Below, piece by piece: positions 9,090 to 28,414 of a DNA stretch of 32,306 nt; position 1 is the stretch's first letter, and each line of letters begins with the position of its first letter. Where the stretch lies: positions 1-32,306 of the forward strand of contig JAJYCT010000019.1 of the NCBI GenBank assembly GCA_021778125.1, written 5' to 3'. Both the position numbers and the translations under genes were made by a program. Origin of the DNA: Myxococcales bacterium. Lineage in GTDB: Bacteria > Myxococcota_A > Polyangia > Polyangiales > Polyangiaceae. Below the pieces are notes generated by a model. That model worked only from the letters and a program-made list of their open reading frames with translations, was not told the DNA's origin and made no database searches.

Positions 9090-10230
9090 CCGCCCGGCCC
9101 GCGGCGCCGCGATACATCCGCTCCAGCGCGCCGGCCATCGCCTCCACCGTGAAGCGCTCCTGGACGAGCCCACGCGCTCGCTCCCCCGCACGCGCACGCA
9201 CGGTCGGGTCCAGGTACCGACCGAGCGCCGCGGCGAGCCCACCGGCGTCTCCGTCCCGAAATCGGATCCCGGCGCCCGCGGCGTCGATCTCGGACGACAG
9301 GGCGACGCCGTCGCTCACCACCGCCGGCAACCCGACGCCCATCGCCTCGAGCGCCGCGAGCCCGAAGTTCTCGTGGTGGCTGGGCAGCACGAAGACGTCG
9401 CTGTCGGCGAGCAGGCGCGCCTTCTCGTCGCCGTGCACGAACCCGAAGAACCGGACCCGCGCCGCGATGCCGAGCGACCGCGCCTGGGCTTCGAGCTCGG
9501 CGCGGTGCGCGTCGTCGCCGCCTCCGCCGATGTCGAGACGCCAGGCGCGCCCGCTCATGTCGGGCAGCTTCGCGACGGCGTCGAGCAGCACCGGCAGCCC
9601 CTTGATCGGGTGCAGGCGCCCGATGAACAGGATGCGCAGGGTCTCACTTGCGGACCGCTGGACCGCCCTCGGCAACTGTACGCCGTAGCCGATCGCGCAG
9701 GTCCGGGCCCCGAACCCCAGGTCGTCGAGCGCCTGACGCTCCATCTCGGACGTCACGTGCACGACCGCCGCCGCGCGCAGGTTCCGCTTCTCGAGGAGCT
9801 GGTAGTAGGGCCACTTCTTCCACGCCCGGTGGCGGAGCGACCAGGGGTCCATCGTGCCGAGCGTGCGGTAGACGTAGGGCACGCGGCGGTAGCGTGCCGC
9901 GGAGCACGCCGCGAGCGAGGGATACGAGAACGGAGCGTGGACGTGCAGCACGTCGTAGTGCCCCGCGCTGGCGTAGAGCCAGCGCGTCAGCGGCAGCGAC
10001 AGGTTCCAGCCCGATCCGGTCACACGGGGGAACAGCCGGTAGCGCACCGCCTGCTCCTCGTAGGTCCACACGCGCCTCGGATCCTCGTGCCCCTGTGGCG
10101 TCCCGAAGCTCGTCGCCGCGACCTCGACCTCGAGCCCGCGCGCGGCGCACGCTGTCGCCATCATCCGGACCCCGTGGCTCGGTCCCCCGTGCTCCAGCGC
10201 GATCGTCGGGATGACGTGCAGGATCTTCAT
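9046..10230 (-). CDS. Glycosyltransferase family 4 (GT-B fold)
   Basis: This 394-residue glycosyltransferase starts at ATG 10230 (MKILHVIPTIALEHGGPSHG). The 798-aa track ORF adds only shadow of the carbamoyltransferase. The N-terminal domain has the usual HVIPT..GGPSHGVRMMA opening. The C-terminal domain has ILFIGRLHPIKGLPVLLDAV near residues 200-215 and the family motif DVFVLPSHHENFGLAALEAMGVGLPAVVSD near 290-320, the E-x7-E-type donor motif of GT4 retaining enzymes. It likely adds a sugar to the polysaccharide repeat on the cytoplasmic face. Its ATG overlaps the TGA of the carbamoyltransferase upstream (ATGA), suggesting coupled translation and a shared substrate chain. It ends 44 bp inside the convergent asnB. 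Donor sugar is unknown. Confidence 0.93.
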   Translation of the reverse strand: MKILHVIPTIALEHGGPSHGVRMMATACAARGLEVEVAATSFGTPQGHEDPRRVWTYEEQAVRYRLFPRVTGSGWNLSLPLTRWLYASAGHYDVLHVHAPFSYPSLAACSAARYRRVPYVYRTLGTMDPWSLRHRAWKKWPYYQLLEKRNLRAAAVVHVTSEMERQALDDLGFGARTCAIGYGVQLPRAVQRSASETLRILFIGRLHPIKGLPVLLDAVAKLPDMSGRAWRLDIGGGGDDAHRAELEAQARSLGIAARVRFFGFVHGDEKARLLADSDVFVLPSHHENFGLAALEAMGVGLPAVVSDGVALSSEIDAAGAGIRFRDGDAGGLAAALGRYLDPTVRARAGERARGLVQERFTVEAMAGALERMYRGAAGRAVTTSDAAGTSARGR

Positions 10231-11975
10231 CCCGCGTCGCTCTTCTCCATCCAGAACGATCCCACCCCCAGGCAATCCATCCGCGTCCGCCGGAAGCAGT
10301 CGATCGCCTGCTCGGGCGTGTGCACGATGGGCTCGTTCTCGTTGAACGAGGTGTTGAGCACCACGGGCGTTCCGGTTCGCTTCTCGAAGGCCGAGATGAG
10401 GTCGTAGTACAGGGCGTTCTCGTCGCGGCGGACGGTCTGCACGCGGCCGGTCCCGTCCTCGTGGGTGATCGCGCTCAGGCGGTCCTTCCACTCGGGGCGC
10501 ACCTTGTAGACGACGATCATGAACGGCACCTCGTGCGTGCCGCGGAAGCAGGTGTCGAGCTTCTCGGCGAGCACCGCCGGCGCGAACGGCCGGAACGGCT
10601 CGCGGTTCTTGATGCGCGCGTTGAGCGTGGCCTTCATGTCGGGCCAGCCCGGGTGGCAGAGGATGCTGCGGTTGCCGAGCGCGCGCGGGCCCCACTCCTC
10701 GCGCCCCTGGAACCAGCCCATGATGCGGCCCTTCGCCAGCGTGTCCGCCGCGCGCTCGATGAGCGCCTCGCGCCCGAGCTTCTCGAACCGCAGGCCGGAC
10801 GCCGCGGCGGCCCTCTCGATCTGCTCGTCGGTCCATTCGGACCCGAGGTACGCGTGGCGCAGCGGCTCGGCGCGCCGGACGCCGTGCTTCTGGTGCTGCA
10901 CGAAGAGCGCCGCCCCGGCGGCCGTGCCGTCGTCGGAGGCCGCGGGGTGGAAGTAGGCGCGATCGGCCACGCGCTCGGTGAGCATCCGCCCGTTCGCCAC
11001 CGAGTTGAGGACGCTGCCGCCGGCCATGACGACGTCCCGGACGCCCACCGCGCGCACGGCGTCCTGCACGTACGCCAGGTACATGTCCTCGAAGTGCGTC
11101 TGCATCGACGCCGCGACGTCGCGCTCGCGATCCTCGACCGGCGCCGGCCGCCGCCGCGCGGTCCCGAGCAGGCGCTCCATCTCGGGCGACCACAGCGCCG
11201 GGACCGACACCTCCTGCCCCTCGACGATCTCGAGGCCCCGCGTCTGCTCGTGGTGCTTGAAGTATCGGAGGTTCAGGCGGAACCCCTCGCCCGGCGCGTA
11301 CGAGGCCAGCTCGCGCATCTCGCGGACGTAGCGGTTCACGCCGTACGCCGAGAGGCCCATCACCTTGTACTCCTCGCCGAAGCGGTCGAAGCCGATGAGC
11401 TGGCAGATCGCCGTGTAGTAGACGCCGGGCGAGTGCGGCCACAGCGTCCGCCGCTCGACGTCGATCCGCGTCCCCTCGCAGCGCGCGATGAGCCCACTGG
11501 CGAAGTCGCCGGCACCGTCGGCCGTGATGCCGGTCGCGCGCTCGAAGGGCGAGCAGAAGAACGAGCTCGCGACGTGCGCGACGTGGTGCTCCACCTGGTG
11601 GAAGCCGGCGCGCACGTCCGCGGCCGCGGCGCCCATCGCGTCGGCCACTTGATCGGACGTGGACGCCACCTCGCGGTGGATGCGCAGGCGGTCGAGCACG
11701 CGGGGCAGGGTCGTCGCCGGCCGCCTGGCCACGAACGCCGCCTTGGCCGCGAGGTTGGCCTTCGGATCCCGCGCGACGGCGATGTCGGTCACGTCGCGCA
11801 GGCTCGCCCCGGCGATCCGCAGCACCTCCTGCACGGCCAGGCGCGGGAAGCCGGCGCAGTGCTTGTTGCGGTTGAGACGCTCCTCGGCGATGGCGGCGAG
11901 CACGCCGCGCTCGCTGACGAGGACCGCCGACGAGTCGGCGTGGGCGGAGTTGATGCCGAGGACGAGGCGGGCCAT
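10227..11975 (-). CDS. NodU/CmcH/TobZ-family O-carbamoyltransferase
   Basis: This cytoplasmic enzyme transfers a carbamoyl group from carbamoyl phosphate, through carbamoyl-adenylate, to a hydroxyl, here probably on a sugar. It is 582 residues, normal for the family. The start is ATG 11975 (MARLVLGINSAHADSSAVLV); the extra 28 residues in the track are unlikely. The N-terminal Kae1-like domain has EHHVAHVASSFF near residue 125 (metal and carbamoyl-phosphate site) and ITADGAGDFASG. GGSVLNSVANGRML is near the middle. The C-terminal YrdC-like part shows EWGPRALGNRSILCHP, NREPFRPFAPAVLAE and LNTSFNENEPIV. It heads a two-gene unit with the GT4 gene (4-bp overlap) and diverges from carB, which makes its co-substrate. 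It could modify either the polysaccharide or a small molecule; location favours the former. Confidence 0.95.
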   Translation of the reverse strand: MARLVLGINSAHADSSAVLVSERGVLAAIAEERLNRNKHCAGFPRLAVQEVLRIAGASLRDVTDIAVARDPKANLAAKAAFVARRPATTLPRVLDRLRIHREVASTSDQVADAMGAAAADVRAGFHQVEHHVAHVASSFFCSPFERATGITADGAGDFASGLIARCEGTRIDVERRTLWPHSPGVYYTAICQLIGFDRFGEEYKVMGLSAYGVNRYVREMRELASYAPGEGFRLNLRYFKHHEQTRGLEIVEGQEVSVPALWSPEMERLLGTARRRPAPVEDRERDVAASMQTHFEDMYLAYVQDAVRAVGVRDVVMAGGSVLNSVANGRMLTERVADRAYFHPAASDDGTAAGAALFVQHQKHGVRRAEPLRHAYLGSEWTDEQIERAAAASGLRFEKLGREALIERAADTLAKGRIMGWFQGREEWGPRALGNRSILCHPGWPDMKATLNARIKNREPFRPFAPAVLAEKLDTCFRGTHEVPFMIVVYKVRPEWKDRLSAITHEDGTGRVQTVRRDENALYYDLISAFEKRTGTPVVLNTSFNENEPIVHTPEQAIDCFRRTRMDCLGVGSFWMEKSDAG

Positions 11976-12111
11976 GCGCGTAAGGAGGGACCTGGTTCGT
12001 TGCGGCGCGGGGTTCAGGCGTTCGGTCGCGTGCAGCGTGCTAGCCTGCGGCCGATTCACCTGAACGCGGGCGCGGTTTGCCGCGTCTTATCATGGGGAAG
12101 CCCCGTCTGCG

Positions 12112-15361: not shown

Positions 15362-16408
15362 ATGAAGCGCGCGCTGATCACCGGGATCACCGGCCAGGAC
15401 GGCTCGTACCTCGCCGAGCTCCTGCTCGAGAAGGGCTACGAGGTCCACGGCATCGTCCGGCGGGCGAGCACGTTCAACACCGACCGGATCGACCACCTCT
15501 ACAAGGATCCGCACGATCCGACGGCGCGCCTCTTCCTGCACCACGGCGATCTCTCCGACGGCACGGGTCTGCGGCGCATCCTCGAGCGCGTGCGCCCCGA
15601 CGAGGTCTACCACCTGGGCGCGCAGTCGCACGTGCGCGTCTCCTTCGATGAGCCCGAGTACACCGCCGACGTCGACGGGACCGGGACGCTGCGCCTGCTC
15701 GAGGCGCTGCGCGACTCGATGGGCGGCTCCGGCCGGAGCACGCGCGTGTACAACGCCGGCTCGTCCGAGATGTTCGGCGCCGCGGAGCCCCCGCAAAGCG
15801 AGTCCACCGCGTTCCACCCGCGCAGCCCGTACGCGGTCAGCAAGGTCGCCGCGTTCTGGTACTCGGTGAACTACCGTGAGGCGTACGGGATGTTCGTGTC
15901 CAACGGCATCCTCTTCAACCACGAGTCCCCGCGCCGCGGCGAGACGTTCGTCACGCGCAAGATCACGCGCGCCGCCGCGCGCATCAAGCTGGGCCTGCAG
16001 GACAAGCTCTACCTCGGCAACCTCGAGGCGAAGCGCGACTGGGGCTTCGCGGGCGACTACGTCGAGGCGATGTGGCGGATGCTGCAGCAGGACCGGCCAG
16101 ACGACTACGTCGTCGCCACCGGCGAGGCCTACTCGGTGCGCCAGTTCGTGGAGGCCGCCTTCGCCTTCCACGGCCTCGAGTGGACGCCCTACGTACAGAT
16201 CGAGGAGCGCTACTTCCGCCCCTCCGAGGTCGACCACCTGTGCGGCGACCCGCGCAAGGCGCGCGCGGCGCTCGGATGGGCGCCCCGCGTGAGCTTCCAG
16301 GATCTCGTGAAGATGATGTGCAGCCACGACCTCGAGCTCGCGCGCCAGGAGAAGACGCTGCGCGACGCGGGGCACACCTTGGGCGTACGCGGAGGCGGTC
16401 GCGAATGA
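15362..16408 (+). CDS. gmd: GDP-mannose 4,6-dehydratase
   Basis: This converts GDP-D-mannose to GDP-4-keto-6-deoxy-D-mannose, the first step to GDP-L-fucose. It is a 348-residue extended short-chain dehydrogenase. The NADP-binding glycine motif [12 protein letters not shown] is at residues 8-19. [16 protein letters not shown] and the acceptor-loop segment follow, and the catalytic Tyr-x3-Lys lies in SPYAVSK near residue 157. [19 protein letters not shown], a hallmark of Gmd, is present. A GAGGA Shine-Dalgarno overlaps the carB stop and supports ATG 15362. Its TGA overlaps the fcl ATG (ATGA), so the two enzymes of the pathway are coupled. The gene is typical in length and motifs, and nothing is missing. 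Confidence 0.98.
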
Positions 16409-17334
16409 ACAAGGGCGACCGCATCTACGTGGCCGGCCATCGCGGCCTGGTGGGCTCGGCCATCGTGCGCCGCCTCGAGACCGACGGCTTCGACCATCTC
16501 GTCCTGCGCACGCGATCCGAGCTGGATCTGCGCCGCCAGGACCAGGTCGACCGGTTCTTCGAGCAGGAGCGGCCGGACTACGTGTTCCTCGCCGCAGCCA
16601 AGGTCGGCGGCATCTATGCGAACAACGCGTATCCCGCCGACTTCATCCGCGACAACCTCCTCATCCAGACGCACGTCATCGACGCTGCCCACCGGGCGGG
16701 CGTCGAGAAGCTCCTGTTCCTCGGGTCCTCATGCATCTACCCGAAGCAAGCGCCCCAGCCGATGACCGAGGAGTGCCTGCTCACGGGTCCCCTCGAGGCG
16801 ACCAACCGGCCCTACGCGCTCGCCAAGATCGCCGGCCTCGAGATGGTTCGCTCGTACCGCCGGCAGTTCGGTTTCCGGGGTATCGCCGTCATGCCCACCA
16901 ACCTGTACGGCCCGCACGACAACTTCGATCCCGAGACGTCGCACGTGCTGCCGGCGCTGCTCCGCAAGATCCACGAGGCGCGCGCTGCGGGGGCAGCCGA
17001 GGTCGAGGTCTGGGGCACCGGTCAGCCGCGGCGCGAGTTCCTGCACGTCGACGATCTGGCCGACGCCTGCGTGTTCCTGATGCAGCGCTACGAGGGCGAG
17101 CTCGCGCTGAACGTAGGCGTCGGCGACGACGTGACCATCCGGGAGCTCGCCGAGCTGATCGCCGGGGTGGTCGGCTTCGAGGGGAAGCTCCGATTCGATG
17201 CCTCCAAGCCCGACGGCACTCCCCGCAAGCTCCTCGACGTCTCCCGGCTGCATGCCCTGGGCTGGCGCGCGCGCATCTCGCTCGAGAAGGGCGTCGCGGA
17301 CACCTACGAATGGTTCCGGAGACGCGCGACGTGA
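16405..17334 (+). CDS. fcl: GDP-L-fucose synthase (GDP-4-keto-6-deoxymannose epimerase/reductase)
   Basis: This does the second and third steps to GDP-L-fucose: 3,5-epimerisation, then NADPH reduction of the 4-keto sugar. It is 309 residues starting at ATG 16405 ([20 protein letters not shown]); the 420-aa track ORF extends into gmd and should be trimmed. The nucleotide motif GHRGLVG is at about residues 11-17. [19 protein letters not shown] and [15 protein letters not shown] are highly conserved Fcl segments, and the catalytic Tyr-x3-Lys is in PYALAK near 136. [20 protein letters not shown] is diagnostic. It overlaps the gmd stop as ATGA. Together they show that L-fucose, or a derivative, is a component of the polysaccharide. 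It is also known as wcaG. Confidence 0.98.
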
Positions 17335-17399: not shown

Positions 17400-18062
17400 A
17401 TGAGGGCTCGTTTCGCTCGCGGATGCGTCGGCGCGATTGCAGTGTTGGCCATGCTGGGGTCCTACGCCTGCAGCCTGTCCAGCAACGGGGAAGGGACTGT
17501 CGGGCCCGATGGTTCGACGACCGATACGGGCGGGCCGGCGGAGGACGGGGCCACGGAGGCCAGCGTCGTGACGGATTCCTCCATCGTGGACGCGGTGACG
17601 ATGGATGCTCAGTCGGTCGATTCGGGGCCACTCCAGGAGTCCGGCGTGCTCGAAGCGGGCCCTGACTGCGGCGCGGGGTTCCGATGCGGGAACGACTGCC
17701 TGCCTCCGGGCACCGATCCGTGCGGCGCGTGCGACGCGGGACACCTCGCCTGCAACGACGACCAGTCGTGCGTTAGCGACTGCGTCCAGTGCACCGGACG
17801 CCCCGTCGAATGCTGCAACGCTCAGGGGGCTCCGTCCGGAGCGTGCCTCACGTTCTACCTGATCAACACCTTCTACAACGGGCAGTGCCCGACGAACCAG
17901 GTACGCTGCCCCTGCGCAAGCGGCGACGCGGGGTCGTGTCCGAGCGCCAGCCAGGTATGCCTGCAGGATGGCTGTAACGCCTGCGGCGAGACCCCCGGTA
18001 CCGATGGCCTGACGTGTCACGGTTCGGGGACGTGCAGCCTGGAGGCGGGGGCTTGCCTCTAG
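17400..18062 (+). CDS. Cysteine-rich putative lipoprotein
   Basis: This is a secreted protein of 220 residues, start ATG 17400 (MRARFARGCVGAIAVLAMLGSYACS). The N-terminus is a basic, hydrophobic signal sequence. The Cys in SYAC could be the lipidation site, though the box is imperfect because Ser replaces the usual Leu or Val at -3. An acidic, Thr/Gly/Asp-rich linker (about residues 28-85) is followed by a domain with about 20 Cys (CGAGFRCGNDCLPPG, CGACDAGHLACNDD, CVQCTGRPVECCN). The regular spacing suggests disulphide-bonded modules. Proteins of this style are common in myxobacteria and mostly uncharacterised. It lies between fcl and the nucleotidyltransferase; the latter's probable start codon sits within its last 10 bp. 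No Shine-Dalgarno is evident. Whether it belongs to the lasso operon is unknown. Confidence 0.82.
   Translation: MRARFARGCVGAIAVLAMLGSYACSLSSNGEGTVGPDGSTTDTGGPAEDGATEASVVTDSSIVDAVTMDAQSVDSGPLQESGVLEAGPDCGAGFRCGNDCLPPGTDPCGACDAGHLACNDDQSCVSDCVQCTGRPVECCNAQGAPSGACLTFYLINTFYNGQCPTNQVRCPCASGDAGSCPSASQVCLQDGCNACGETPGTDGLTCHGSGTCSLEAGACL
18041..18055 (+). promoter_or_regulatory. Shine-Dalgarno deciding a TTG start for the nucleotidyltransferase
   Basis: GGAGG at 18041-18045 stands 7 nt before TTG 18053, which is in frame with the nucleotidyltransferase and overlaps the end of the lipoprotein gene. The track's GTG start at 18014 has no comparable site, and its extra residues (MSRFGDVQPGGGG) look like shadow. 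The TTG is therefore the better start. Confidence 0.55.
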
Positions 18063-18922
18063 GCCAGGCCCAGGATCCGCGCCTCGCGACCTGGGTTCGG
18101 CACCAGTACGCCGCAGTAGCGCTCGAACAGGTACTGGTGGCCTTCGACCGAGAAGGCATCGACGCGCTCCCCGTGAAGGGGGTGGTCCTCGCACCGCGGC
18201 TGTACGGCAGCCTCGCTGACCGGCCGATGGGGGACGTCGATCTGCGCGTCCGCCCTGCGGACCTCCAGCGCGTCGCGCGCGTGGCTTCGGCGTCTGGATG
18301 GCCCGTTCGCCGGACCTCCCGACAGCTCGGAACGCTCGATCTTGATGTCTGCAACACACTCATCGAGATCGAGACGACAATCGGTCCACCAGGGGTGTGC
18401 GCGGTGGACGTGGATGCCATGCTCCGCCGTTCGACCGTCCAGACGGCGCCCTTCGGCTTCCGGCACAGGGAGCCGGAGGTCCATGACCACGCGCTCGTCC
18501 TCTGCGTGAACGCGTTCAAGGACCAGCTCCGCTTCGCTCCTCCAACGTGCGCGACCGATCTGGCTCTGCTTGCGCGCCGTCCGGAGTTCCACGCGGACCG
18601 CATGGTGTCGAGAGCCCGCGAAGCCCGCCTTACGGCGCTCGTCTGGCTCGTGGCCGACTGGCTCGAGCGCCGGACACCGGGCACGACGTGGGGCGAGGTG
18701 CTCATCCGGCTGGGAAGCGTGCCTCCCCGCCCGGTCTACGCCCGCGCCTTTGCGGCCACCATCCGGAGCCCGTCGGCGTCCTCGGTTGCCGCAGCGGCCG
18801 TGCTGGCCCGGACCTGCTCGGACGACTGGTGGATGCGCTGCAAGGCACTGGGCCTCGGCGCCCTGGGAACTGCACTGGCCCTCGGTCACCACAAGGGCTG
18901 GGCCGCTCGCACGAGCGCGTGA
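18053..18922 (+). CDS. PF14907-type nucleotidyltransferase of lasso-peptide operon
   Basis: This is a predicted cytoplasmic nucleotidyltransferase of about 289 residues (302 if the GTG at 18014 is used). The signature is LPVKGVVLAPRLYGSLADRPMGDVDLRV, near residues 40-67. Its KG followed by GDVDL matches the NTP_transf_5 (PF14907) fold, in which the D-x-D pair binds metal and nucleotide. NAFKDQLRF follows in the middle, and the C-terminal half is helical. This family recurs in lasso-peptide clusters that also encode an HPr-kinase-like protein, as here. Its exact chemistry on the peptide is not established to my knowledge. It starts over the end of the lipoprotein gene and ends 65 bp before the precursor. 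The substrate could be the lasso peptide or its leader; that is inference from position. Confidence 0.82.
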   Translation: MPLGQAQDPRLATWVRHQYAAVALEQVLVAFDREGIDALPVKGVVLAPRLYGSLADRPMGDVDLRVRPADLQRVARVASASGWPVRRTSRQLGTLDLDVCNTLIEIETTIGPPGVCAVDVDAMLRRSTVQTAPFGFRHREPEVHDHALVLCVNAFKDQLRFAPPTCATDLALLARRPEFHADRMVSRAREARLTALVWLVADWLERRTPGTTWGEVLIRLGSVPPRPVYARAFAATIRSPSASSVAAAAVLARTCSDDWWMRCKALGLGALGTALALGHHKGWAARTSA

Positions 18923-18975
18923 ATCTTAGGGGTGGCTCATGACACCAACGTCAGGTAGGGTCGGTGTCCTGTGAT

Positions 18976-18990
18976 GGAGGAGAACCCGTG
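18976..18990 (+). promoter_or_regulatory. Shine-Dalgarno and GTG start of lasso precursor
   Basis: GGAGG at 18976-18980 lies 7 nt before GTG 18988. The track's GTG at 18964 has no such site. A 58-residue precursor is therefore preferred over the 66-residue one. Confidence 0.7.
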
Positions 18991-19164
18991 ACGGATCGCA
19001 AGCAAGATGGGCTCGAAGCCGCGTGCTCCGGCGCCGGCGAGCAAGCCGCGGCGCGGCGCAAATACTCGCGCCCGACGCTGCGGCATCTAGGCTCGGTCCG
19101 CGAGATCACGCTCGGCGGGACCAAGGGCACCTCCGAGACCGGCGGGCACCGAACGAACGGATGA
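18988..19164 (+). CDS. Lasso peptide precursor (A)
   Basis: This 58-residue ribosomal precursor starts at GTG 18988 on a strong Shine-Dalgarno. The leader is residues 1-42 and ends in the recognition motif Y26-x2-P29-x-L31-x3-G35-x5-T41, the YxxPxLxxxGxxxxxT pattern that PqqD-like RRE proteins bind. Thr41 is the penultimate leader residue required by lasso peptidases. The predicted core is GGTKGTSETGGHRTNG (16 residues), with Gly1 as ring amine and Glu8 as ring acid, giving an 8-residue macrolactam and an 8-residue tail. My hand sum for the cyclised core is about 1497.69 Da monoisotopic. The core has no aromatic residue; His12 and Arg13 are the only bulky plugs. Its TGA overlaps the cyclase ATG. 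The alternative Gly2-Glu8 seven-membered ring would break the Thr -2 rule. Confidence 0.9.
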   Translation: MTDRKQDGLEAACSGAGEQAAARRKYSRPTLRHLGSVREITLGGTKGTSETGGHRTNG

Positions 19165-20942
19165 TCGCTGCAGTCCTGGCTCCGAGCGTCGCCGACCGCG
19201 ACGAGCGGATGGCCAGGATCGTCGCGTGGGCGGGGCCCACGAGCGCCCGCTGGACGGTGGGCCGCGCCGTCTTTGCAACGTGGCCGCATTGCGGGCGAGC
19301 GGGCCGCACGGGCGATGGCGCCGTGTTGGGCCGTCTGGATACGGCGGTCGATCACCTGGGGCTGGACCTAGGGCGTGCGAGCGGAGACTTCGCGCTCGTC
19401 AGTCCTGCCGCCGATGACGGCCTCCTGCTCGCCCGGGCGCAGCTCGCAGGCCGCCCCCTCTACTACTGGCGCGACAGGGCGACGGGGGCCGTCGTCGTGT
19501 GCTCGCAACTCGCCGGGTTGCTGCATGTCATCGGGCACCGGCCCTCCTTGAACGTGCAGCGGCTCGCGTCACTCGCGGTCGAATGGCCCCACTTCGATCC
19601 GACCGCGACCGTCTACGACGCCGTCTCCCGTGTGGACCTCGGCCAGGCGCTGGTGTTGTCCCTGGAGCGCCGCGTCGCGACCCGGACCCATGCCATCGGT
19701 GTGGAGCCGCTGCTCGAGGGGACGGCCGAGGAGCTCGCCGACCAGCTCCGGGCACACGTCCTTTCTGCCGTTCGCCGCTCGATCGAGGGTGCGACCCGGG
19801 TGGCCGTGATGGCCGGCGGAGGCGTCGACTCGAGCGGCCTCCTGGCAGCCGCCGTGGCCATCGCTCGGGGGGCTCCGAAGCGCGACGTCCAAGCGATCGC
19901 CTTCGACTTCGCCGGCCCTGGCGACGACCGTCCCTACCTCCGGGCGCTCGCGTCCGCCCTGGGCCTCGAGCCGATCCGGGTCGGAGCGAGTGGCCTGAGC
20001 CCCTTCCTCCGGAAGACGCTCGTCATCGATGCGTCGCCCGCGGCATGGCCATCGATAGCGGTGGACGTAGGCCTCGCGGCGGCAGCCCGGGAGGCCGGCG
20101 CCGATCGCCTGATCTCTGGTGTCTGCGGGGACGATCTCATCGATGGCGAGCCACGGTTCCTCGCCCAGGTCGCACGCGGGGGGCATCTCGTGGAAGCGCT
20201 GCGGGATGCGGTCCGCCTGCGACTCTACTGGAGGACGTCCGCGGCCGAGCGAGTCGTCTCGTTCGTCCTGCGCCCCCTCGCCGCGACCACGCTGCCCTGG
20301 TTGGCCCTCGCGACACGCCGCATGCGCAACCGGGTGGATCAGGACTGGCTCGGACCCGAGCTCCGCGCTCTCGTGGAGACGACTGCGGCGAGGGATCGGC
20401 GTCGCTATCCGCAGGACGTCCATCTGAGGTCGCGGCATCGCATCCTGGCCGCGCGCTACCTGCAGAGCGTGATGGAGGTCCAGGCGCAGGTCACCGCAGC
20501 GACGGGGCTCGCCACGGCGAGCCCCTTCTTGGATCGCGAGCTCGTTTCCTTCGTTACCCGGATCCCTCCGACCATGCTGTTGCACGGAGGTCGCCTCAAA
20601 GGCTTGTACCGGTTGGCCATGCGCGGCCTGGTACCCGACCAGATCCTCGATCGCCCCGACAAGGCGGAGTTCGTCTGCGGCTACGACGAGGTCGTCCAGG
20701 GCGCCGGGGGGTTCGGGGCGCTCGAGGATCTGGCGACCATGAGGGAGCTCGGTAGGCTCGGGCTCGTCGAGCCGGCCCCATACCTGCGCGCGTACCGGAA
20801 GCTCACGGGCGAGGCCCGCGCGAGTGGGGAGTGGCTCCTGCTGTGGCCTGCCCTCGCCGTGGAGGCATTCGTGCGAGCGTACGAGCGGGGAGATCTGACA
20901 CCGCGACCTCCGCGCACTGTCGCCGCGGACGTAAGGGCCTGA
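19161..20942 (+). CDS. Lasso macrolactam synthetase (C), asparagine-synthetase-like
   Basis: This ATP-dependent enzyme adenylates the ring Glu of the precursor core and closes the isopeptide bond with Gly1. It is 593 residues starting at ATG 19161 (MIAAVLAPSVADRD), overlapping the precursor stop as ATGA; the 639-aa track ORF starts within the precursor. The N-terminal half resembles an Asn-synthetase glutaminase domain but lacks the Cys2 nucleophile, as expected for McjC-type cyclases, which need no ammonia. The ATP PP-loop is VAVMAGGGVDSSGLLAA near residues 212-228 (usually SGGxDS; the first Ser is Ala here). LISGVCGDDLIDGEPRF near 315 matches the second synthetase motif, and TASPFLDRELV near 450 is also family-like. 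The order A-C-kinase-B1-B2 leaves little doubt about its role. Confidence 0.93.
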   Translation: MIAAVLAPSVADRDERMARIVAWAGPTSARWTVGRAVFATWPHCGRAGRTGDGAVLGRLDTAVDHLGLDLGRASGDFALVSPAADDGLLLARAQLAGRPLYYWRDRATGAVVVCSQLAGLLHVIGHRPSLNVQRLASLAVEWPHFDPTATVYDAVSRVDLGQALVLSLERRVATRTHAIGVEPLLEGTAEELADQLRAHVLSAVRRSIEGATRVAVMAGGGVDSSGLLAAAVAIARGAPKRDVQAIAFDFAGPGDDRPYLRALASALGLEPIRVGASGLSPFLRKTLVIDASPAAWPSIAVDVGLAAAAREAGADRLISGVCGDDLIDGEPRFLAQVARGGHLVEALRDAVRLRLYWRTSAAERVVSFVLRPLAATTLPWLALATRRMRNRVDQDWLGPELRALVETTAARDRRRYPQDVHLRSRHRILAARYLQSVMEVQAQVTAATGLATASPFLDRELVSFVTRIPPTMLLHGGRLKGLYRLAMRGLVPDQILDRPDKAEFVCGYDEVVQGAGGFGALEDLATMRELGRLGLVEPAPYLRAYRKLTGEARASGEWLLLWPALAVEAFVRAYERGDLTPRPPRTVAADVRA

Positions 20943-20952
20943 AGGCCCCGCC

Positions 20953-21744
20953 ATGGCCGCCCTTACCTGGCTCTGCGAGCAGCGTGAGCGCGACGAGCTG
21001 ATCTTCCGGGTCGGACGTGACGGAGAGAGCCTCGTGGCCGACTTCGTGGGCGTCGGAAGGCTCAGCGCTCGCCCGGGCGATCCGGCGCCGACGTTCGAGC
21101 CCTACCCGGATGCCTCACCGGCGGCGGTCGCCAAGCTGCTCGAAGGCCCGGTCCCGGCCTTGCTGCGCACCCTCGAAGGGAGGCTCGCCCTGCACGGCGC
21201 GTCGGCCGCGCGGAACGGCCGCGCCATCGTCTGCGTGGGCCCGAGCGGAGCCGGAAAGTCGACGACGATCGCAGAGCTCGCGCGGCGTGCGGGCGTCGAG
21301 CTCGTGAGCGACGACGCGGCGGCGCTCGATGCCGTGGAGGGGCGGATCCAGATCACGCCGACCGAGCCTACGAGCTGGCTGTTGCCCGCGGCGCGAAGGG
21401 CCTTGGGACTCGATGCCTCATCCGAGTTCAAGACCCGGGTCGCTCCACGAGCGCGGTGCACCGGGCGGCCAGACGTCATCGCGATCTGTGGTCTCACGTT
21501 CGACGACTCGGCGGAACCGAGTCTTCGTCGACTCGCGGGGGCCGAGGCCTTCGCCGTGCTGGCCGGTTGCGCGGTTCGATTCGACATCGACGACCCGACG
21601 GCGCGCGTCCGGGAGCTCGAGCAACTCATGGAGGTCTGCCGACGAGTCTCGATCTTCGAGCTGCGCCGTCCGCGCGCGTTGGAGAAGCTGTCCGCCCTCG
21701 GCGACCTGCTGGAGGCTCTTCTGACTGCCGGGGGGAATCCATGA
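20953..21744 (+). CDS. HPr-kinase-like lasso peptide kinase
   Basis: This is a 263-residue protein with an HprK-like P-loop domain. The Walker A motif GPSGAGKSTTI is near residues 96-106, preceded by LEGRLALHGASAARNGRAIVCV. ELVSDDAAALDAV near 115-127 is the acidic site typical of HprK-like kinases. The N-terminal 85 residues are less conserved. In paeninodin-type lasso clusters a homologous kinase phosphorylates the C-terminal Ser of the precursor. The precursor here ends in Asn-Gly, so if the kinase acts on the peptide it must use another Ser/Thr (core T3, T6, S7, T9 and T14 are available) or another target. The gene starts 10 bp after the cyclase stop and overlaps B1 as ATGA. Family call is strong; substrate is inferred. 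Confidence 0.88.
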   Translation: MAALTWLCEQRERDELIFRVGRDGESLVADFVGVGRLSARPGDPAPTFEPYPDASPAAVAKLLEGPVPALLRTLEGRLALHGASAARNGRAIVCVGPSGAGKSTTIAELARRAGVELVSDDAAALDAVEGRIQITPTEPTSWLLPAARRALGLDASSEFKTRVAPRARCTGRPDVIAICGLTFDDSAEPSLRRLAGAEAFAVLAGCAVRFDIDDPTARVRELEQLMEVCRRVSIFELRRPRALEKLSALGDLLEALLTAGGNP

Positions 21745-22034
21745 GGCTCGGCGACCACGATCGCGTCCTCGTCGCTACGGGGGTCCACGTGCGGGAGTTC
21801 GAAGGGGAGCTGATCATCCTCGACCTGGCGCGCGGCGACTACTTCGGGCTCGACGAGGTGGGGGCGCGCATGTGGGTCCAGCTCGCGGCCGGACGGACCC
21901 TGCGTGAGGTGGCCGAGGTGCTCTCGGCCGAGTACGGTGAACCCGTGGATCGAGTGCTCGACGATGCGCGCCATCTGGTCGAAGCGCTCCTCGAGCGCGG
22001 CCTGGCCGTGGTAGCAGCCAAGGCCCAGCCATGA
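21741..22034 (+). CDS. PqqD-like RiPP recognition element (lasso B1)
   Basis: This 97-residue RRE protein binds the precursor leader and presents it to the peptidase. The start is ATG 21741 (MRLGDHDRVLVATGVHVREF), overlapping the kinase TGA; the 192-aa track ORF extends into shadow. The fold signature of PqqD is visible: a beta strand pair (VREFEGELIILDLARGDYFGLDEVGARMW), then helices with LREVAEVLSAEYG and the final VEALLERGLAVV. As a stand-alone protein split from the peptidase, it fits the B1/B2 arrangement typical of lasso clusters outside the E. coli McjB type. The leader motif it should read, YxxPxLxxxGxxxxxT, is present in the precursor. Its own TGA overlaps the B2 ATG. Confidence 0.93.
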   Translation: MRLGDHDRVLVATGVHVREFEGELIILDLARGDYFGLDEVGARMWVQLAAGRTLREVAEVLSAEYGEPVDRVLDDARHLVEALLERGLAVVAAKAQP

Positions 22035-22384
22035 GGGCCGTCGCGGCCGCACACGCGCTGCACGCCGTGGCCCGGATGGCTCTTCGGCTGGCCTCCCCGT
22101 TGAGGGCGAAGCGCATCGTCGATGCCGTGGGGCGCCGTATGCCCCGCCTGCTTGCGCACGAAGCGCGAGCCGTCGCGAACGCCATCGACTCCCGAGGAAC
22201 GTGCCTGAGCCGGGCCATGACGGTTGCGGCCATGGTCCCGGGCGCGGCCGTCGTGATCGGGGTCGATCCGCTCGCCCGTCGTCCGCTGTTCGGTCACGCG
22301 TGGGTAGAACTGGCAGGCCAGCCCCTGCGCCCGGGCGACGTCGACGGCTTCGAAATCGCGCGCCTGGTGACGGATCAGCCGTGA
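22031..22384 (+). CDS. Lasso leader peptidase, transglutaminase-like (B2)
   Basis: This cysteine protease of 117 residues removes the leader after Thr-x. The core is GTCLSRAMTVAAMV with catalytic Cys58, and FGHAWVEL with His89. An Asp in the following PGDVDGF segment could complete the triad seen in PF13471 (Transglut_core3) B2 proteins. A hydrophobic amphipathic N-terminus (ALHAVARMALRLASPL) is typical. It is slightly short compared with many B2 proteins, which run about 120-150 residues, but no key residue is missing. It overlaps B1 as ATGA and is the last biosynthetic gene of the unit. No exporter gene follows at once; the next gene is a lipoprotein 63 bp away with its own strong Shine-Dalgarno. 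Confidence 0.92.
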   Translation: MRAVAAAHALHAVARMALRLASPLRAKRIVDAVGRRMPRLLAHEARAVANAIDSRGTCLSRAMTVAAMVPGAAVVIGVDPLARRPLFGHAWVELAGQPLRPGDVDGFEIARLVTDQP

Positions 22385-22447
22385 CGGGGTACTCTCGGGT
22401 TGAGCTGCTTCCCGCTGGAGGCGACTGGGGATGAAAGGAGACTTGCC

Positions 22448-23482
22448 GTGAAGAACTTGCTGCGCGTGGCTGGTGCCTTGGGGGCCGTCGGTACCGTGGT
22501 TGGAGCTCTGGTCATGACGGGAGCGGGGTGTTCCGGTTCGACGGCTACGTCGCCGGGCTCCGACGCGGGGGAGGACGCAACGGGGGACTCGGCAGCCGAC
22601 GGCGGCGAGGACGTCACGTCGACCGAGACCGGAACCGACTCGGGAACGGTCGACTCCAGCACGGTCGACTCCGGGACCAGGGACTCCGGCACGGTCGACT
22701 CGGGCACGGTGGATTCGGGGATCATCGTGGACTCCGGCTCCGTTGACTCTGGCACCGGCGACGGCAGCCCGGAAGCGGCCCCGTCCTACGCCTTCTTCCC
22801 CAACGAGGTCGTGCAGACCATCTGCAACCACCTCGCAACATGCTGCGAAGGCTCGAACACGTCCTCCTTCAACATGCAGCAGTGCTTCGCGGTGTTCACG
22901 TCGTTCGGCGGACTCAACGGCGACGGCCTCTACCTCGCCGAGCCGGCCCTGCAGGCCGACGGCGGGGCCGCGGTGGCGTACAACCCGAGCGCGGCGGCAG
23001 CATGTCTAGCGGACATCTCCGCGCTGCCCTGCGGCAGCGTCCACGACACGTCATGGCAGCAGGTGACCAGTCAGTGCTTCGCGGCGCTGACGGGGGGCAT
23101 TCCGGTCAACGGCACGGGCTGCCACGGGTCGATCGAGTGCGCGCCCGACTCTTATTGCAGCAACGGGACGTGCACTCCCATCCTCGCGCTGGGGGCGCCG
23201 TGTACGACGAACGACCAGTGCCAGTACCGTGGCACGGCACCCAAGACGGCGTACTGCGACTACCAGTACCCGAACCCGGACGCGGGCACGCAGACCTGCG
23301 TCGCGGCGCAGCCGACCGGTTCAGTCTGCGGGTACACGTTCTATTATCCCAACGAATGCCAGACGTTCGTGTGCAACGCGAGCTCGGGTCTCTGTGACAC
23401 GGCCCAGCTCTTCAGCGATCCCGGTGTGTCGCAGGGTCTGTGCGACTCGTTGACCATCAAGGACGCAGGCGGCGGCGGCTGA
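22448..23482 (+). CDS. Cysteine-rich lipoprotein with DSGTV-repeat linker
   Basis: This secreted lipoprotein of 344 residues starts at GTG 22448, set by AAAGGAG at 22434-22440 seven nucleotides before it; the track's start at 22400 adds non-signal residues. The signal sequence is KNLLRVAGALGAVGTVVGALVMTGAGC, with a likely lipid-attachment Cys. A long acidic linker follows (about residues 30-110), containing tandem DSGTV units coded by 15-bp DNA repeats. The globular part has many Cys: ICNHLATCCEG, then CHGSIECAPDSYCSNGTCTPI and later pairs typical of small disulphide modules. Such proteins are frequent in Polyangia and lack known function. It lies between the lasso B2 gene and a nucleotide-sugar dehydrogenase, and a hairpin at about 23506 may end its transcript. 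A link to the lasso pathway is not shown by sequence. Confidence 0.85.
   Translation: MKNLLRVAGALGAVGTVVGALVMTGAGCSGSTATSPGSDAGEDATGDSAADGGEDVTSTETGTDSGTVDSSTVDSGTRDSGTVDSGTVDSGIIVDSGSVDSGTGDGSPEAAPSYAFFPNEVVQTICNHLATCCEGSNTSSFNMQQCFAVFTSFGGLNGDGLYLAEPALQADGGAAVAYNPSAAAACLADISALPCGSVHDTSWQQVTSQCFAALTGGIPVNGTGCHGSIECAPDSYCSNGTCTPILALGAPCTTNDQCQYRGTAPKTAYCDYQYPNPDAGTQTCVAAQPTGSVCGYTFYYPNECQTFVCNASSGLCDTAQLFSDPGVSQGLCDSLTIKDAGGGG
22637..22757 (+). repeat. 15-bp tandem repeats coding DSGTV
   Basis: Units close to GACTCSGGMACGGTC recur in 15-bp steps, in frame, with one or two longer interruptions, and encode the DSGTV linker of the lipoprotein. Third-position variation shows that the units have been under coding constraint since they arose. 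Confidence 0.75.
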
Positions 23483-23602: not shown

Positions 23603-24883
23603 ATGAACGAACGCATCGCGGTCATCGGTCTGGGCTACGTGGGCCTGCCCGTGGCTCTGGCCTTTGCCCGGAGGTTCCCTGGCACCATCGGCTTCGACGT
23701 CAACGCGGAGAAAGTCGACGAGCTGCGACGCGGCTTCGATCGGAACCACGAGCAGCCGCGCGAGGTGCTCGAATCCACCTCGTTGCAGATGACGGCCAAC
23801 CTGGCCGATCTTCAGGGCGCAACCTTCTTCGTCGTCGCAGTGCCGACGCCCGTCGACCAGAACAACCTCCCCGACCTCACGCCGGTCGAGCGCGCCAGCG
23901 AGGCGGTCGCCCGGGTCCTCTCCAAGGGCACCGTGGTCGTCTACGAGTCGACAGTCTACCCCGGGGTCACGGAGGAGATCTGCGGTCCGATCCTCGAGCG
24001 CGTGAGCGGATTGAAGCAGGGCGTCGACTTCAAGCTCGGCTACTCTCCCGAGCGGATCAACCCAGGAGACAAGGAGCACACGCTCGAGCGCATCACGAAG
24101 GTCGTGAGCGGGGAGGACGCCGCGACGCTCGAGCGCGTTGCGTCGGCCTACGGCGCGATCATCGACGCCGGTGTCCACCGCGCGCCGAGCATCCGCGTCG
24201 CCGAGGCGGCGAAGGTCATCGAAAACACTCAGCGCGACCTGAACATCGCCCTCATGAACGAGCTGGCGATCATCTTCGACCGCATCGGGATCCGTACGTC
24301 CGACGTCCTGGCGGCGGCGTCCACGAAGTGGAACTTCCTGCGCTTCCGCCCCGGGCTCGTCGGCGGTCACTGCATCGGCGTGGATCCGTACTACCTGACG
24401 ATGAAGGCGCAGCAGCTCGGCTACCAGCCCGAGGTCATCCTCGCGGGGCGCCGCATCAACAACAACATGGGGCCGTACGTTGCGGCGAAGGTCGTCAAGC
24501 TGCTCATCGACGCGGACCTCAGCGTGAAGGGAGCGCGTGTGGGCGTGCTCGGCCTGACGTTCAAGGAGGACTGCAGCGACATCCGCAACAGCCGGGTGCC
24601 GGACATCCTGCGGGAGCTGAAGCAGTTCGGTATCGAACCGCTGGTGCATGACCCGATCGCGGACGCCAGCGACGCGGCGCATGAGTACGGAATCAAGCTC
24701 GTGTCGGTCGACGAGCTGGCTCGCCTCGATGCGCTCGTGCTTGCAGTGAGCCACCGCTGGTACCTCGACCGGGGAACCGAGGCGTTGAACTGCATGCTGC
24801 GCAGGGGCGGGGTCCTGATCGACGTGAAGAGCGCGCTCGAACCTGCTCAGGTCCGCGCCGACGTGAGGTATTGGAGCCTGTAG
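23603..24883 (+). CDS. UDP-HexNAc 6-dehydrogenase (WbpA/TviB-like nucleotide-sugar dehydrogenase)
   Basis: This cytoplasmic NAD-dependent enzyme oxidises C6 of a UDP-sugar, probably UDP-GlcNAc or UDP-GalNAc, to the uronic acid. It is 426 residues. The NAD-binding motif IAVIGLGYVGLPVA is at residues 5-18. VPTPVDQNNLPDL, YESTVYPGVTEE and YSPERINPGDKEHTL follow in order. The catalytic Cys lies in PGLVGGHCIGVDPYYL, near residue 256. LGLTFKEDCSDIRNSRV in the C-terminal domain is characteristic of the TviB/WbpA branch, whereas GlcA-forming Ugd proteins usually read differently. It belongs by function to the polysaccharide locus at 3-17 kb but is cut off from it by the lasso operon. Its product could be the substrate for the AsnB-like amidotransferase. 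The exact UDP-sugar is uncertain. Confidence 0.95.
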   Translation: MNERIAVIGLGYVGLPVALAFARRFPGTIGFDVNAEKVDELRRGFDRNHEQPREVLESTSLQMTANLADLQGATFFVVAVPTPVDQNNLPDLTPVERASEAVARVLSKGTVVVYESTVYPGVTEEICGPILERVSGLKQGVDFKLGYSPERINPGDKEHTLERITKVVSGEDAATLERVASAYGAIIDAGVHRAPSIRVAEAAKVIENTQRDLNIALMNELAIIFDRIGIRTSDVLAAASTKWNFLRFRPGLVGGHCIGVDPYYLTMKAQQLGYQPEVILAGRRINNNMGPYVAAKVVKLLIDADLSVKGARVGVLGLTFKEDCSDIRNSRVPDILRELKQFGIEPLVHDPIADASDAAHEYGIKLVSVDELARLDALVLAVSHRWYLDRGTEALNCMLRRGGVLIDVKSALEPAQVRADVRYWSL

Positions 24884-25168: not shown

Positions 25169-26659
25169 ATGCGCAGCGCAGCGGCTTGGGCCGCGGTCGT
25201 CGTTCCGACGCTGACCGCGACGATGCTCGGGTGCTCCGGATCGACGGGCCCGCTGGGGCCCACGGGAGCGCAGGGCCCGCAAGGGCCGGAAGGTTCCCAG
25301 GGCGCACAGGGGCCCCAGGGCGACGCAGGAGCGCCCGGAGCGCCCGGCACCAGCGGGCCGCAGTCCCTCTCCGGCGTGGTCCCGGCGGTGGGGTTGCTCG
25401 ACCGAGGGGTCGACGTCGTCTTGCTGGGCAGCGGCACCGCGTTCACGTCGTCCACGAGCATCGACTTCGGGCCGGGTATCGCGGTCTCCAGCGTCATGCG
25501 CCTGTCTGCGAGCGCCTTGTCGGCGCACCTCGCGATCGACGCCACTGCAGCAGTGGGGGCGAGAGCCGTGAGCGTGACCACGGGCGATCAGAAGTTCCTC
25601 GCGGCCGGCGCCTTCCGCGTGGCTGCGCCGATTGACGTGGCCATCACGGCGGGCAATGCCATCCAGGGAGGGCTGGTGCAGCTCGACGTGGTCGACCAGG
25701 ACGGCGACTCCTTCAGCACCAGCTCGATGGCGATCATCGGTTCGGTGAGCACGCTGGGAACCGTCTCCGCGGAGACAGCTACACGCGCGTCGGTCATCGC
25801 GTTCGTCGACCCTCTGGCCCCTGCGGGCGCAGCGCAGCTCGAAGTGGCGAACGTCGAGCTCAGCCTCGGAGGCGCAGTCGTCTTTCCGGAGACCTTCTTG
25901 AGCACGCCGAGGGCGGTGACCGTAGGTACGGGCGCGCTGCTCTGGCTCAGTCCGGGAAGTCCGCTCGCCAAGGAGCGGATCGACGCCGTCGCCGGGACCC
26001 GAGCCTACAAGACGTACACGACGGGCCCCGGCGTGGTGTCCGTCGCTGTGACGCCGACCTCGGGCAGCCGCATGGCACCGCGGCTCAACGTGTATCCGAC
26101 GAGCGGCCGCTCCGCCGACCTCGTGGGCTCGGTGGCGGCCTCGATGCCGAGCATCGCCTATCCGGTGCTCGACAAGACGTGGACGTACTCGGTGGTCAGC
26201 GACCAGACGCTCGGCGGCGGCTCGTCCCTGTACGGCTACGGCATCGCCGCCGACTTCCGCGGCGCCGACGCGATCCAGACCGAGGCGCCAGGCCTGCACT
26301 TCAACGCGGCGAGCGCGCAAGTGATGTGCGCGACCGTGGCGGCGCAGGGGGCGGGCGTTTGCCTGTTGACGGGCGCAGTGGCGCCCGTCACGGACTTCGA
26401 CGTCTATCAGCTTCCGGCCACCGGACAGCCGACCGATGTCTACGTTTCGAGCGCGTTCGACACGCAGGCCTGGCTGACCCAGGACCAGACGCTCGTCCGC
26501 GTGGACGGCGACCTGTCCCCGGTCTGGCCGGCGCACGTGGCCGCGCACACCATCGACGGGAGCGCTCCCTGGTACATCGTGGTCGAGGGCCGGAGCGGTG
26601 GGTCCGCCCCGACGGGCAACTACGCGATCGGCGTCGCCATCCACGCGGCCGATCCCTAG
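25169..26659 (+). CDS. Lipoprotein with collagen-like Gly-X-Y stretch
   Basis: This is a secreted lipoprotein of 496 residues. The start is ATG 25169, with GGAGG six nucleotides upstream. The signal sequence MRSAAAWAAVVVPTLTATMLGC gives a lipobox (MLGC) near residue 22. Directly after it comes a collagen-like run of about thirteen Gly-X-Y triplets (GPLGPTGAQGPQGPEG and on to about residue 62), rich in Pro and Gln. The rest is a Ser/Thr/Val/Ala-rich beta-type ectodomain of about 430 residues with only two Cys, including an IPT-like stretch and a C-terminal WYIVVEGRSGG..GNYAIGV segment reminiscent of pre-peptidase C-terminal (PPC-like) domains. Short collagen tracts of this sort can trimerise surface proteins. 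Function is unknown. It is likely surface exposed. Confidence 0.87.
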   Translation: MRSAAAWAAVVVPTLTATMLGCSGSTGPLGPTGAQGPQGPEGSQGAQGPQGDAGAPGAPGTSGPQSLSGVVPAVGLLDRGVDVVLLGSGTAFTSSTSIDFGPGIAVSSVMRLSASALSAHLAIDATAAVGARAVSVTTGDQKFLAAGAFRVAAPIDVAITAGNAIQGGLVQLDVVDQDGDSFSTSSMAIIGSVSTLGTVSAETATRASVIAFVDPLAPAGAAQLEVANVELSLGGAVVFPETFLSTPRAVTVGTGALLWLSPGSPLAKERIDAVAGTRAYKTYTTGPGVVSVAVTPTSGSRMAPRLNVYPTSGRSADLVGSVAASMPSIAYPVLDKTWTYSVVSDQTLGGGSSLYGYGIAADFRGADAIQTEAPGLHFNAASAQVMCATVAAQGAGVCLLTGAVAPVTDFDVYQLPATGQPTDVYVSSAFDTQAWLTQDQTLVRVDGDLSPVWPAHVAAHTIDGSAPWYIVVEGRSGGSAPTGNYAIGVAIHAADP

Positions 26660-26734: not shown

Positions 26735-28414
26735 GTGCGTGCGCGAGTCCGCGAGACACTAGGGCTCCTTGCGTCGGTCTCGTCGCCAGCGGCGGGGCCC
26801 GGCGCTCGGGCGGTGGCAGCGCTGGCGCTCCTCGAGCGCCTACTGACGCCAGCGACGGCCTGGTTCGTCCTGCAAGGCGGGCTCGCCGCGAAGATCGGCG
26901 CGACGGCCACGCTGGCGGCCGTCTTCACGCTAAGGAGCTTCGCGCAGCGTACGCTGGCGGCACGACGCGAGGCGCAGCTGTTCGAGCGGGTCATCTCGAC
27001 GCTCATCGAAGGCGAGGTTCTCCGCGCCAGAGTGCTGCTGAGGCGCGACGCCCGCAGTGACCTACCGCAAGCAGTCCACTACTCGGCCATCACCCAGGCG
27101 CAGACCGTCCCCAACCTGCTCGCCGACACGGCAGCATCGATCCTGCTGATGCTCGTCGTGCTGACGATCGAGCCCGTTCGACTCGTGCTGTCGGCCGCCG
27201 CGCTGACGGCGGTGGCAGCTGCCGGCGTCGTCTGGTCTCGAGGGCGCCTGCAGCGAGCCGCGAAGCGTGCGTGGGCTGCACAGGAAGCGGTGATTCTCGC
27301 GCTCGTCGACGCGCTCGAGGGTCGCCTCGAAGTCGTGGCGGCTGGCCGAGGTGACGCCTTCCTGGACGAAGCCCGTGCACGGGCGCGTGCCTGGTGGCGG
27401 GCCAGCTCGCGCGTGGCCTCGGCGACGCTCGTGTCGGGTCGCCTTCCCATGCTCGCGGTGGCCGCCGCCGTCGTGGTCCTCGTGGCGCTGAGCTCTCGTT
27501 CGCGCGGGGTGCTCGCGATCACGCTCCCGGACCTCGCGCTCTTCGCGAGCGTCACCCCCGCGTTCGCGGGCATCGCACAGGGCCTCTATGCGCTCACACA
27601 GGCCGAACCGTGGTTAGGCCTGGTCGCTGAGACCCTTCGTCTGTCGAAACGGCCTCCGGGGGGCGCGCGACCGGTGCCGCAGCTACCCGCGACCGTCGAC
27701 TTTGCCCGCGTATCGTTCGAGTACGGCCCCTCGGGAACCCGCCGCGCGCTGCAGGACGTTACCTTCGCCTGGGATCGCGGCCGCGTCTTGGCTCTCGCTG
27801 GCACCAATGGCTCGGGCAAGAGCACGTGCCTGCGCCTTCTGCTCGGTCTTGCCCCGCCGATCGCGGGCCACATCACGATCGGCGGAGTCTCGCTGTCCGA
27901 GCTCGACATCGAGGCCTGGCGCCGCGGCATCGCGTTCCTCCCCCAGCGCGCGTACATGCCGCCGCAGGCCGATCTCGGTGCCGCGATCCGTTTCCTGGTC
28001 CCCGAAGCGACTGATGATCGGATCCTCGCCGCCCTCGACCGCGTCGGCCTGCTCGCATCGCTCCACCGCTTCGGGGACGCTCCCCTCGCCGCCCCCATCG
28101 ACGCCCTCTCCGTCGGCGAACGCCAGCGCGTCGCGATCGCGCGCCTGCTCTGCCACGACGCCGCGGTGTACCTTCTCGACGAGCCGGACGCGAACCTGGA
28201 TCGCGCGGGGATCGCCTTGTGCGCCCGGCTCGTACGCGAGCTCTCTCAGGGCGCGATGGTCGCGTTCGCGGCACACACCCCCGAGCTCATCGAGGCTGCG
28301 GATGACGTGCTGACCCTGGAGCGCGGGCGCGGGGTCGCCAATCTCGAGCCCGACGTGTCCGCGTTACGTCATGGCAAGGTCGACATCTCCGGAGGCGGCG
28401 CAAACTCCGAGTAG
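26735..28414 (+). CDS. ABC transporter, fused permease and ATPase (possible lasso exporter)
   Basis: This one-chain half-transporter has 559 residues and starts at GTG 26735. The N-terminal ~315 residues hold about five or six TM segments (ALLERLLTPATAWFVLQGG, SILLMLVVLTIEPVRLVL, MLAVAAAVVVLVAL). The nucleotide-binding domain follows. Its Walker A AGTNGSGKST is near 354, the Q-loop FLPQRAYM near 405, the signature LSVGERQRVAIARLL near 457 (SVGE in place of SGGQ), Walker B AVYLLDEPDANLD near 475, and the H-loop AAHTPEL near 510. It probably works as a homodimer in the inner membrane. McjD-type exporters of lasso peptides have this architecture, and none is found nearer the lasso operon. At 4.3 kb distance, with unrelated genes between, the link is only plausible. 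It could also export a polysaccharide or another peptide. It overlaps the convergent gene by 46 bp. Confidence 0.88.
   Translation: MRARVRETLGLLASVSSPAAGPGARAVAALALLERLLTPATAWFVLQGGLAAKIGATATLAAVFTLRSFAQRTLAARREAQLFERVISTLIEGEVLRARVLLRRDARSDLPQAVHYSAITQAQTVPNLLADTAASILLMLVVLTIEPVRLVLSAAALTAVAAAGVVWSRGRLQRAAKRAWAAQEAVILALVDALEGRLEVVAAGRGDAFLDEARARARAWWRASSRVASATLVSGRLPMLAVAAAVVVLVALSSRSRGVLAITLPDLALFASVTPAFAGIAQGLYALTQAEPWLGLVAETLRLSKRPPGGARPVPQLPATVDFARVSFEYGPSGTRRALQDVTFAWDRGRVLALAGTNGSGKSTCLRLLLGLAPPIAGHITIGGVSLSELDIEAWRRGIAFLPQRAYMPPQADLGAAIRFLVPEATDDRILAALDRVGLLASLHRFGDAPLAAPIDALSVGERQRVAIARLLCHDAAVYLLDEPDANLDRAGIALCARLVRELSQGAMVAFAAHTPELIEAADDVLTLERGRGVANLEPDVSALRHGKVDISGGGANSE

Follow-up and report, generated by a model that had tools for sequence, protein, structure and literature searches.

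The window analysed here, a stretch of 32,306 bp, is one whole contig of the 5.9 Mb assembly of a Myxococcales bacterium. At 18053–18922 on the plus strand it carries a gene, referred to below as N, for a protein of 289 aa from the nucleotidyltransferase-fold family NTP_transf_5 (PF14907). In the ORF reading of the window the frame is open up to the stop at 18922; its TTG start at 18053 agrees with the N-termini of homologues in the alignment and has a GGAGG (18041–18045) seven bases 5' of it. The initial annotation had placed the protein in this family, and a Pfam profile search bore this out (E-value of 1.4e-25, 90.8 bits against a curated cut-off of 31.2), with the match spanning positions 51–241 of the 249 in the profile. 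N is the sole PF14907 match in the assembly. Its nearest named relatives are Myxococcales MAGs, a search of named genomes having returned four real matches, all of them MAGs that are also in the order-wide set described below. No relative of the family was found by sequence search of the PDB, and a plasmid search using an N from a lasso operon gave no match.

N had also been described as sitting directly before the precursor of a kinase-bearing lasso peptide cluster, and this holds. Gene A, encoding a lasso precursor of 58 aa (18988–19164), begins 65 bp after N on the same strand, with a GTG start and a GGAGGA upstream. It matches the profile NF033521 (lasso_leader_L3) at 20.4 bits (cut-off of 19), and its leader carries the pattern common to the precursors of relatives. 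The predicted core, GGTKGTSETGGHRTNG (19114–19161), has a ring from G1 to E8 and ends in RTNG with a C-terminal Gly. A is followed, all on the plus strand, by C, an asparagine synthase-like lasso cyclase (19161–20942), K, an HprK-related kinase with the P-loop GPSGAGKS (20953–21744), and B1, a PqqD-type leader-binding protein (21741–22034), each identified by profile matches, and by B2, a leader peptidase (Transglut_core3, 22031–22384) identified from Pfam and from relatives. Neighbourhood comparison adds a lipoprotein gene (22400–23482, plus strand), with homologues at the 3' end of this operon in relatives, and, together with Pfam, an ABC transporter gene (26735–28414, plus strand) whose homologues close it.

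Inspection of the sequence between N and A revealed an imperfect dyad, GACACCAAC-N10-GTCGGTGTC (18941–18969, plus strand), possibly an operator of the lasso operon; a search for it in relatives gave nothing, and it is known from the window alone. Neither a promoter nor a terminator consensus was found between N and A. As the two genes are on the same strand, 65 bp apart and without a terminator consensus between them, a shared transcript is possible. On its other side N overlaps by 10 nt the end of a gene for a predicted Cys-rich lipoprotein (17400–18062, plus strand, from ORF reading; no match in the Pfam search), which suggests that N is coupled to the genes upstream.

The lasso genes are set among genes for polysaccharide synthesis. 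Before the block lie a WecA-like sugar-phosphate transferase (3143–4693, minus strand), of which a homologue is found directly 3' of N in genus g23, an AsnB, a carbamoyltransferase (10227–12059, minus strand) with ~70% identity to the corresponding member of the N-WecA-carbamoyltransferase-AsnB string of that genus, and, annotated upstream of N on the plus strand, a GDP-mannose dehydratase (15362–16408) and an epimerase/GDP-fucose synthase-like gene (16405–17334). After it comes, by sequence comparison, a UDP-glucose dehydrogenase (UGDH, 23603–24883, plus strand), so that the lasso operon is placed between N and UGDH. The gene between UGDH and the transporter (25169–26659) encodes a protein that is predicted to be secreted and contains a short collagen-like G-P-Q repeat.

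Fold and active site of N

The family signature was located by alignment at 18176–18241 (plus strand) and comprises K42-G43 (18176–18181) and D61-V-D63 (18233–18241), of which D61 and D63 are presumed to be the metal-binding aspartates. K42, D61 and D63 are invariant in the relatives compared (98/98), and position 105, which is E105 in the window, is acidic (D or E) in all 98. This third acid of the active site forms part of E105-I-E107 (18365–18373, plus strand), where the second Glu is specific to the clade of N described below: position 107 is Glu in 23 of the 27 clade members versus His in 68 of the 71 other N proteins, including every N inspected from a lasso operon. Given Glu107 in place of His, the chemistry of the N proteins of lasso operons, or of PsmN (see below), should not be transferred to the N of the window without a test.

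An AlphaFold model of N, built from only five sequences, had a mean pLDDT of 77, with the last ~35 residues poorly modelled. The best match of this model in a structure search was to a nucleotidyltransferase fold (E-value of 2.7e-4, ANT(2'')-Ia being first), and all seven PDB matches at E ≤ 0.001 were nucleotidyltransferase-fold chains; a Pol beta nucleotidyltransferase fold is therefore predicted for N. ANT(2'')-Ia, LnuA, MenT1 and CCA-adding enzymes share the fold of the model (TM-score by target of ~0.6–0.67 for ANT(2'')-Ia and MenT1) at an identity of 11–18%. These enzymes have the usual G-S motif, whereas N has the conserved K-G at that site.

Relatives of N and of the lasso operon

In the tree, N falls within a 27-member clade (support of 97/82) which is separate from the N proteins that are part of lasso operons in other genera; the sister of the window's N is the N of genome G096 (support of 87/90, 35% identity). 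A gene for Wzc, Wzy, WecA, a sugar transferase or UGDH lies within 7.5 kb of N at 20 of the 27 clade loci, compared with 15 of the 69 N loci outside the clade (Fisher 3e-6, with the window included in the 27 and with loci that are non-independent, several clade loci being from one genus). With markers taken solely from outside the clade the figures were 20/27 and 14/69, and counted per genus such a link was seen at least once in 14 of the 18 clade genera. Pfam identified Wzc/Wzz beside N at three loci (L106, L096, and L088) and Wzy at the first of these. Directly after N at L111 (genome G113), and in the same orientation, comes a UGDH with 74% full-length identity to that of the window. In genus g23 an N-WecA-carbamoyltransferase-AsnB-glycosyltransferase string was found at L107, L143 and L149, and in part at L158, with identities to the genes of the window of 50–52% (WecA), 64–72% (carbamoyltransferase) and 44–46% (AsnB).

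A recurrence of NTP_transf_5 proteins in kinase-bearing lasso clusters had been proposed from the window, and it was observed: C, K and B1 are found within 7.5 kb of N at 18 of the 96 N loci compared. Within the clade the full set (C, K, and B1) is near N in only 3 of 27 cases, namely the window, G096 and G122. Since searches with K and B1 also pick up radical-SAM modules (L084 and L109), these two genes alone were not counted as a lasso cluster. Both of these modules (L084:4234–7522 and L109:2476–7963) place N next to radical SAM genes and an HprK-like kinase, and L084 has a PqqD-like gene as well. A complete lasso set is not close to either, and they are possibly another peptide-modification system with the same parts.

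The lasso operon itself was compared across 184 genomes of one order, in 14 of which a B2 of the window type was found at E ≤ 4e-19. Four loci were left out as operons, one recruited by B2 with no other lasso gene (L180) and three with K, B1 and B2 without C (L185, L187, and L188). The readable loci have the order A-C-K-B1-B2, mostly followed by the lipoprotein and the ABC transporter. Seven operon loci of this type have no adjoining N (L177, L178, L179, L181, L182, L183, and L184), and the first of these is from the window's own genus (G143, a genome 77% complete in which no N was found). A ~32 bp tandem duplication which shifts the frame is present in the precursor leader of this locus (L177:5230–5300) and is either a mutation or an assembly error.

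Of the 14 genomes with a window-type B2, 10 have an N of the clade. N shares a contig with the operon in the window, in G096 and, far off, in three single-contig genomes, with 343 kb, 366 kb and 6.2 Mb between N and B2, and in no others; in genus g23 (G097, G098 and G099) the operon and the N string are on different contigs. An N near an operon of the window type was seen only in the window, L150 and L144. In G096 and G122 two or three genes, some of them on the opposite strand, separate N from A, with N ~3 kb from the lasso precursor in G096, where the contig ends at N. At the level of genera, the clade N occurs in 6 of the 7 with a window-type operon versus 14 of the 48 genera of the family (hypergeometric 0.0014, uncorrected for shared ancestry), and N is also found in genomes without a detected B2. 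A check for an empty site within the genus showed that G143 and G144 carry UGDH in unrelated surroundings. A weak N-like match in G144 was rejected as a different type of nucleotidyltransferase.

Nucleotidyltransferases and kinases of known lasso systems

The initial annotation called the reaction of the family poorly defined. This was overstated, as knock-outs tie PsmN to hexoses, although it stands to the extent that no in vitro work has been reported (PMC9266682, PMC8498205). In the pseudomycoidin pathway PsmK phosphorylates the C-terminal Ser and PsmN is needed for the addition of one or two hexoses there, with an indirect route via a host enzyme still being possible (PMC9266682); the in vitro activity of PsmN has not been investigated (PMC8498205). 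Like N, PsmN (Bacillus pseudomycoides DSM 12442) is an annotated nucleotidyltransferase in a kinase-bearing lasso cluster. It is required for hexoses on a phosphorylated C-terminal Ser, while the core of the window ends in Gly, and the N of the window belongs to a clade that is mostly polysaccharide-linked; the two proteins were compared by description.

Published work also describes NTP_transf_5 as recurring beside kinase-bearing lasso genes (PMC8498205, PMC13381572). For the LPP peptides, PMC13381572 reports an NTP transferase alongside an HprK-like kinase, with LppK phosphorylating Ser3 of the core. LppN is an NTP transferase like N and is conserved alongside an exporter, a discrete RRE and an HprK-like kinase, in loci with many glycosyltransferases; LPP loci differ in having a signal-peptidase-like enzyme, and lasso enzymes in only ~1/3 of cases (PMC13381572).

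Closer in taxonomy are the N proteins of kinase-bearing lasso operons in the same bacterial order, which share PF14907, K-G and D-x-D with the N of the window but form separate supported clades with His after the third acid. At seven loci (L036, L038, L040, L041, L047, L049, and L054) N follows B1, in most cases with a GT2 gene as neighbour, and at four others (L070, L079, L101, and L108) it lies between WecA and B1. All of the first seven except L054 have N directly beside the GT2 gene, an arrangement that would fit joint action with a glycosyltransferase. The second clade, which also includes L050, is placed between a WecA-type gene and the lasso genes B1-K-C, so that the order has more than one instance of lasso, N and polysaccharide genes coming together. 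The three are likewise found together in g45 genomes (WecA-N-B1-K-C) and in G114.

Among the kinase-bearing lasso cores read in the order, none ends in Ser and all have a Ser or Thr in the predicted ring. The tail is free of Ser and Thr in the predicted cores of L182, L183, L184, L144, L181 and L041, and there the kinase site, if on the peptide, would be in the ring, unlike in paeninodin. Should the precursor be the substrate of K, phosphorylation would more likely be at a ring residue.

Role of N

The claim that N is the first gene of the lasso unit was weakened by these comparisons, which contradict it in that the clade is mostly polysaccharide-linked and the operon usually occurs without N. 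Because the N genes of relatives are mostly in polysaccharide clusters and the same operon is usually without N, N is more probably a polysaccharide-cluster gene neighbouring the lasso operon than the gene that opens the peptide pathway. N would then belong to a cluster for surface polysaccharide (EPS or O-antigen-like) as an enzyme with the Pol-beta-type nucleotidyltransferase fold, and the operon A-C-K-B1-B2-lipoprotein would lie inside this cluster, between N and a UGDH, the two being direct neighbours in a relative. Metal ions would be held by D61, D63 and E105, the donor may be an NTP or a nucleotide-sugar, and an intermediate of polysaccharide assembly would accept a nucleotidyl or sugar-phosphate group on a hydroxyl or phosphate. 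The simplest account of the present arrangement would be that the lasso operon came to adjoin a resident N. Biochemical support for the N family acting in polysaccharide synthesis was not found in the literature.

A tailoring role like that of PsmN, with K phosphorylating the precursor at a Ser or Thr and N then attaching a nucleotide, or one or more hexoses, to this phosphate, is possible but rather unlikely. It has the knock-out precedent of PsmN (PMC9266682, PMC8498205) and the direct adjacency of N and A in its favour, the N genes of G096 and G122 (L144) also precede a lasso precursor in the same orientation, sugar-nucleotide genes on both flanks could supply a donor, and other N clades are truly built into lasso operons, at six loci directly beside a GT2 gene. 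Against this stand the seven operon loci without an adjoining N, the genes that intervene in G096 and G122, the membership of N in a mostly polysaccharide-linked clade with Glu where the lasso-operon N proteins have His, and a core ending in Gly instead of the C-terminal Ser modified by PadeK and PsmK. The core of the window thus offers no C-terminal Ser acceptor, although its other Ser and Thr residues are still possible acceptors. The initial annotation had regarded a grouping with stand-alone nucleotidyltransferases as evidence against a lasso role; the tree largely agrees with such a grouping, the clade being mostly polysaccharide-linked, except that the sister N of G096 lies near a lasso precursor. 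Adjacency, this sister and the co-occurrence at genus level leave a link of N to the lasso peptide with a minor but appreciable probability.

A combination of the two pathways appears improbable. In this reading N and its clade would be glycan-linked transferases, and N would modify a lasso peptide phosphorylated in the ring with polysaccharide donors that the flanking genes supply (UDP-glucuronate or GDP-fucose), turning the peptide into a glycoconjugate or tethering it to the surface polysaccharide. Immunity or detoxification by nucleotidylation of the mature lasso peptide or its target, in the manner of ANT(2'')-Ia and LnuA on antibiotics, would suit the fold matches to these two enzymes, but those are at fold level with only 11–14% identity, the same lasso operon occurs without N, including in the 77% complete genome of the same genus, and N occurs in genomes without a detected B2, making such a function very improbable. 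That N is a passenger kept by chance, with no current role in either pathway, seems the most improbable of all, as the frame is intact, the active-site residues are invariant and N is repeatedly placed in polysaccharide clusters across many genera.

Genome miners tend to assign every enzyme adjoining a precursor to its pathway. The comparison of 184 genomes of one order suggests that here a textbook-looking tailoring gene before a lasso precursor is more likely a polysaccharide-cluster gene. The NTP_transf_5 family and one in vivo reaction are already known, and it is the polysaccharide-linked clade with the active-site change that is apparently undescribed, no description having been found in the literature searched, coverage of which was incomplete. 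The split between this mostly polysaccharide-linked clade, with its His-to-Glu change, and the clades within lasso operons offers a testable residue and two substrates to compare in a family for which no in vitro reaction is given in the reviews read.

Lasso clusters of the order repeatedly contain a class I methyltransferase gene, either ahead of the precursor or at another site (L144:9524–10660, L178:3847–4983, L181:10981–11946, L150:3915–5192, and L036:9052–10191); none was found in the window. The product at L144 is PrmA/TRM5-like by Pfam and starts with M-Y-S-V. Many of the cores in methyltransferase-bearing lasso clusters have tails rich in Arg or Lys.
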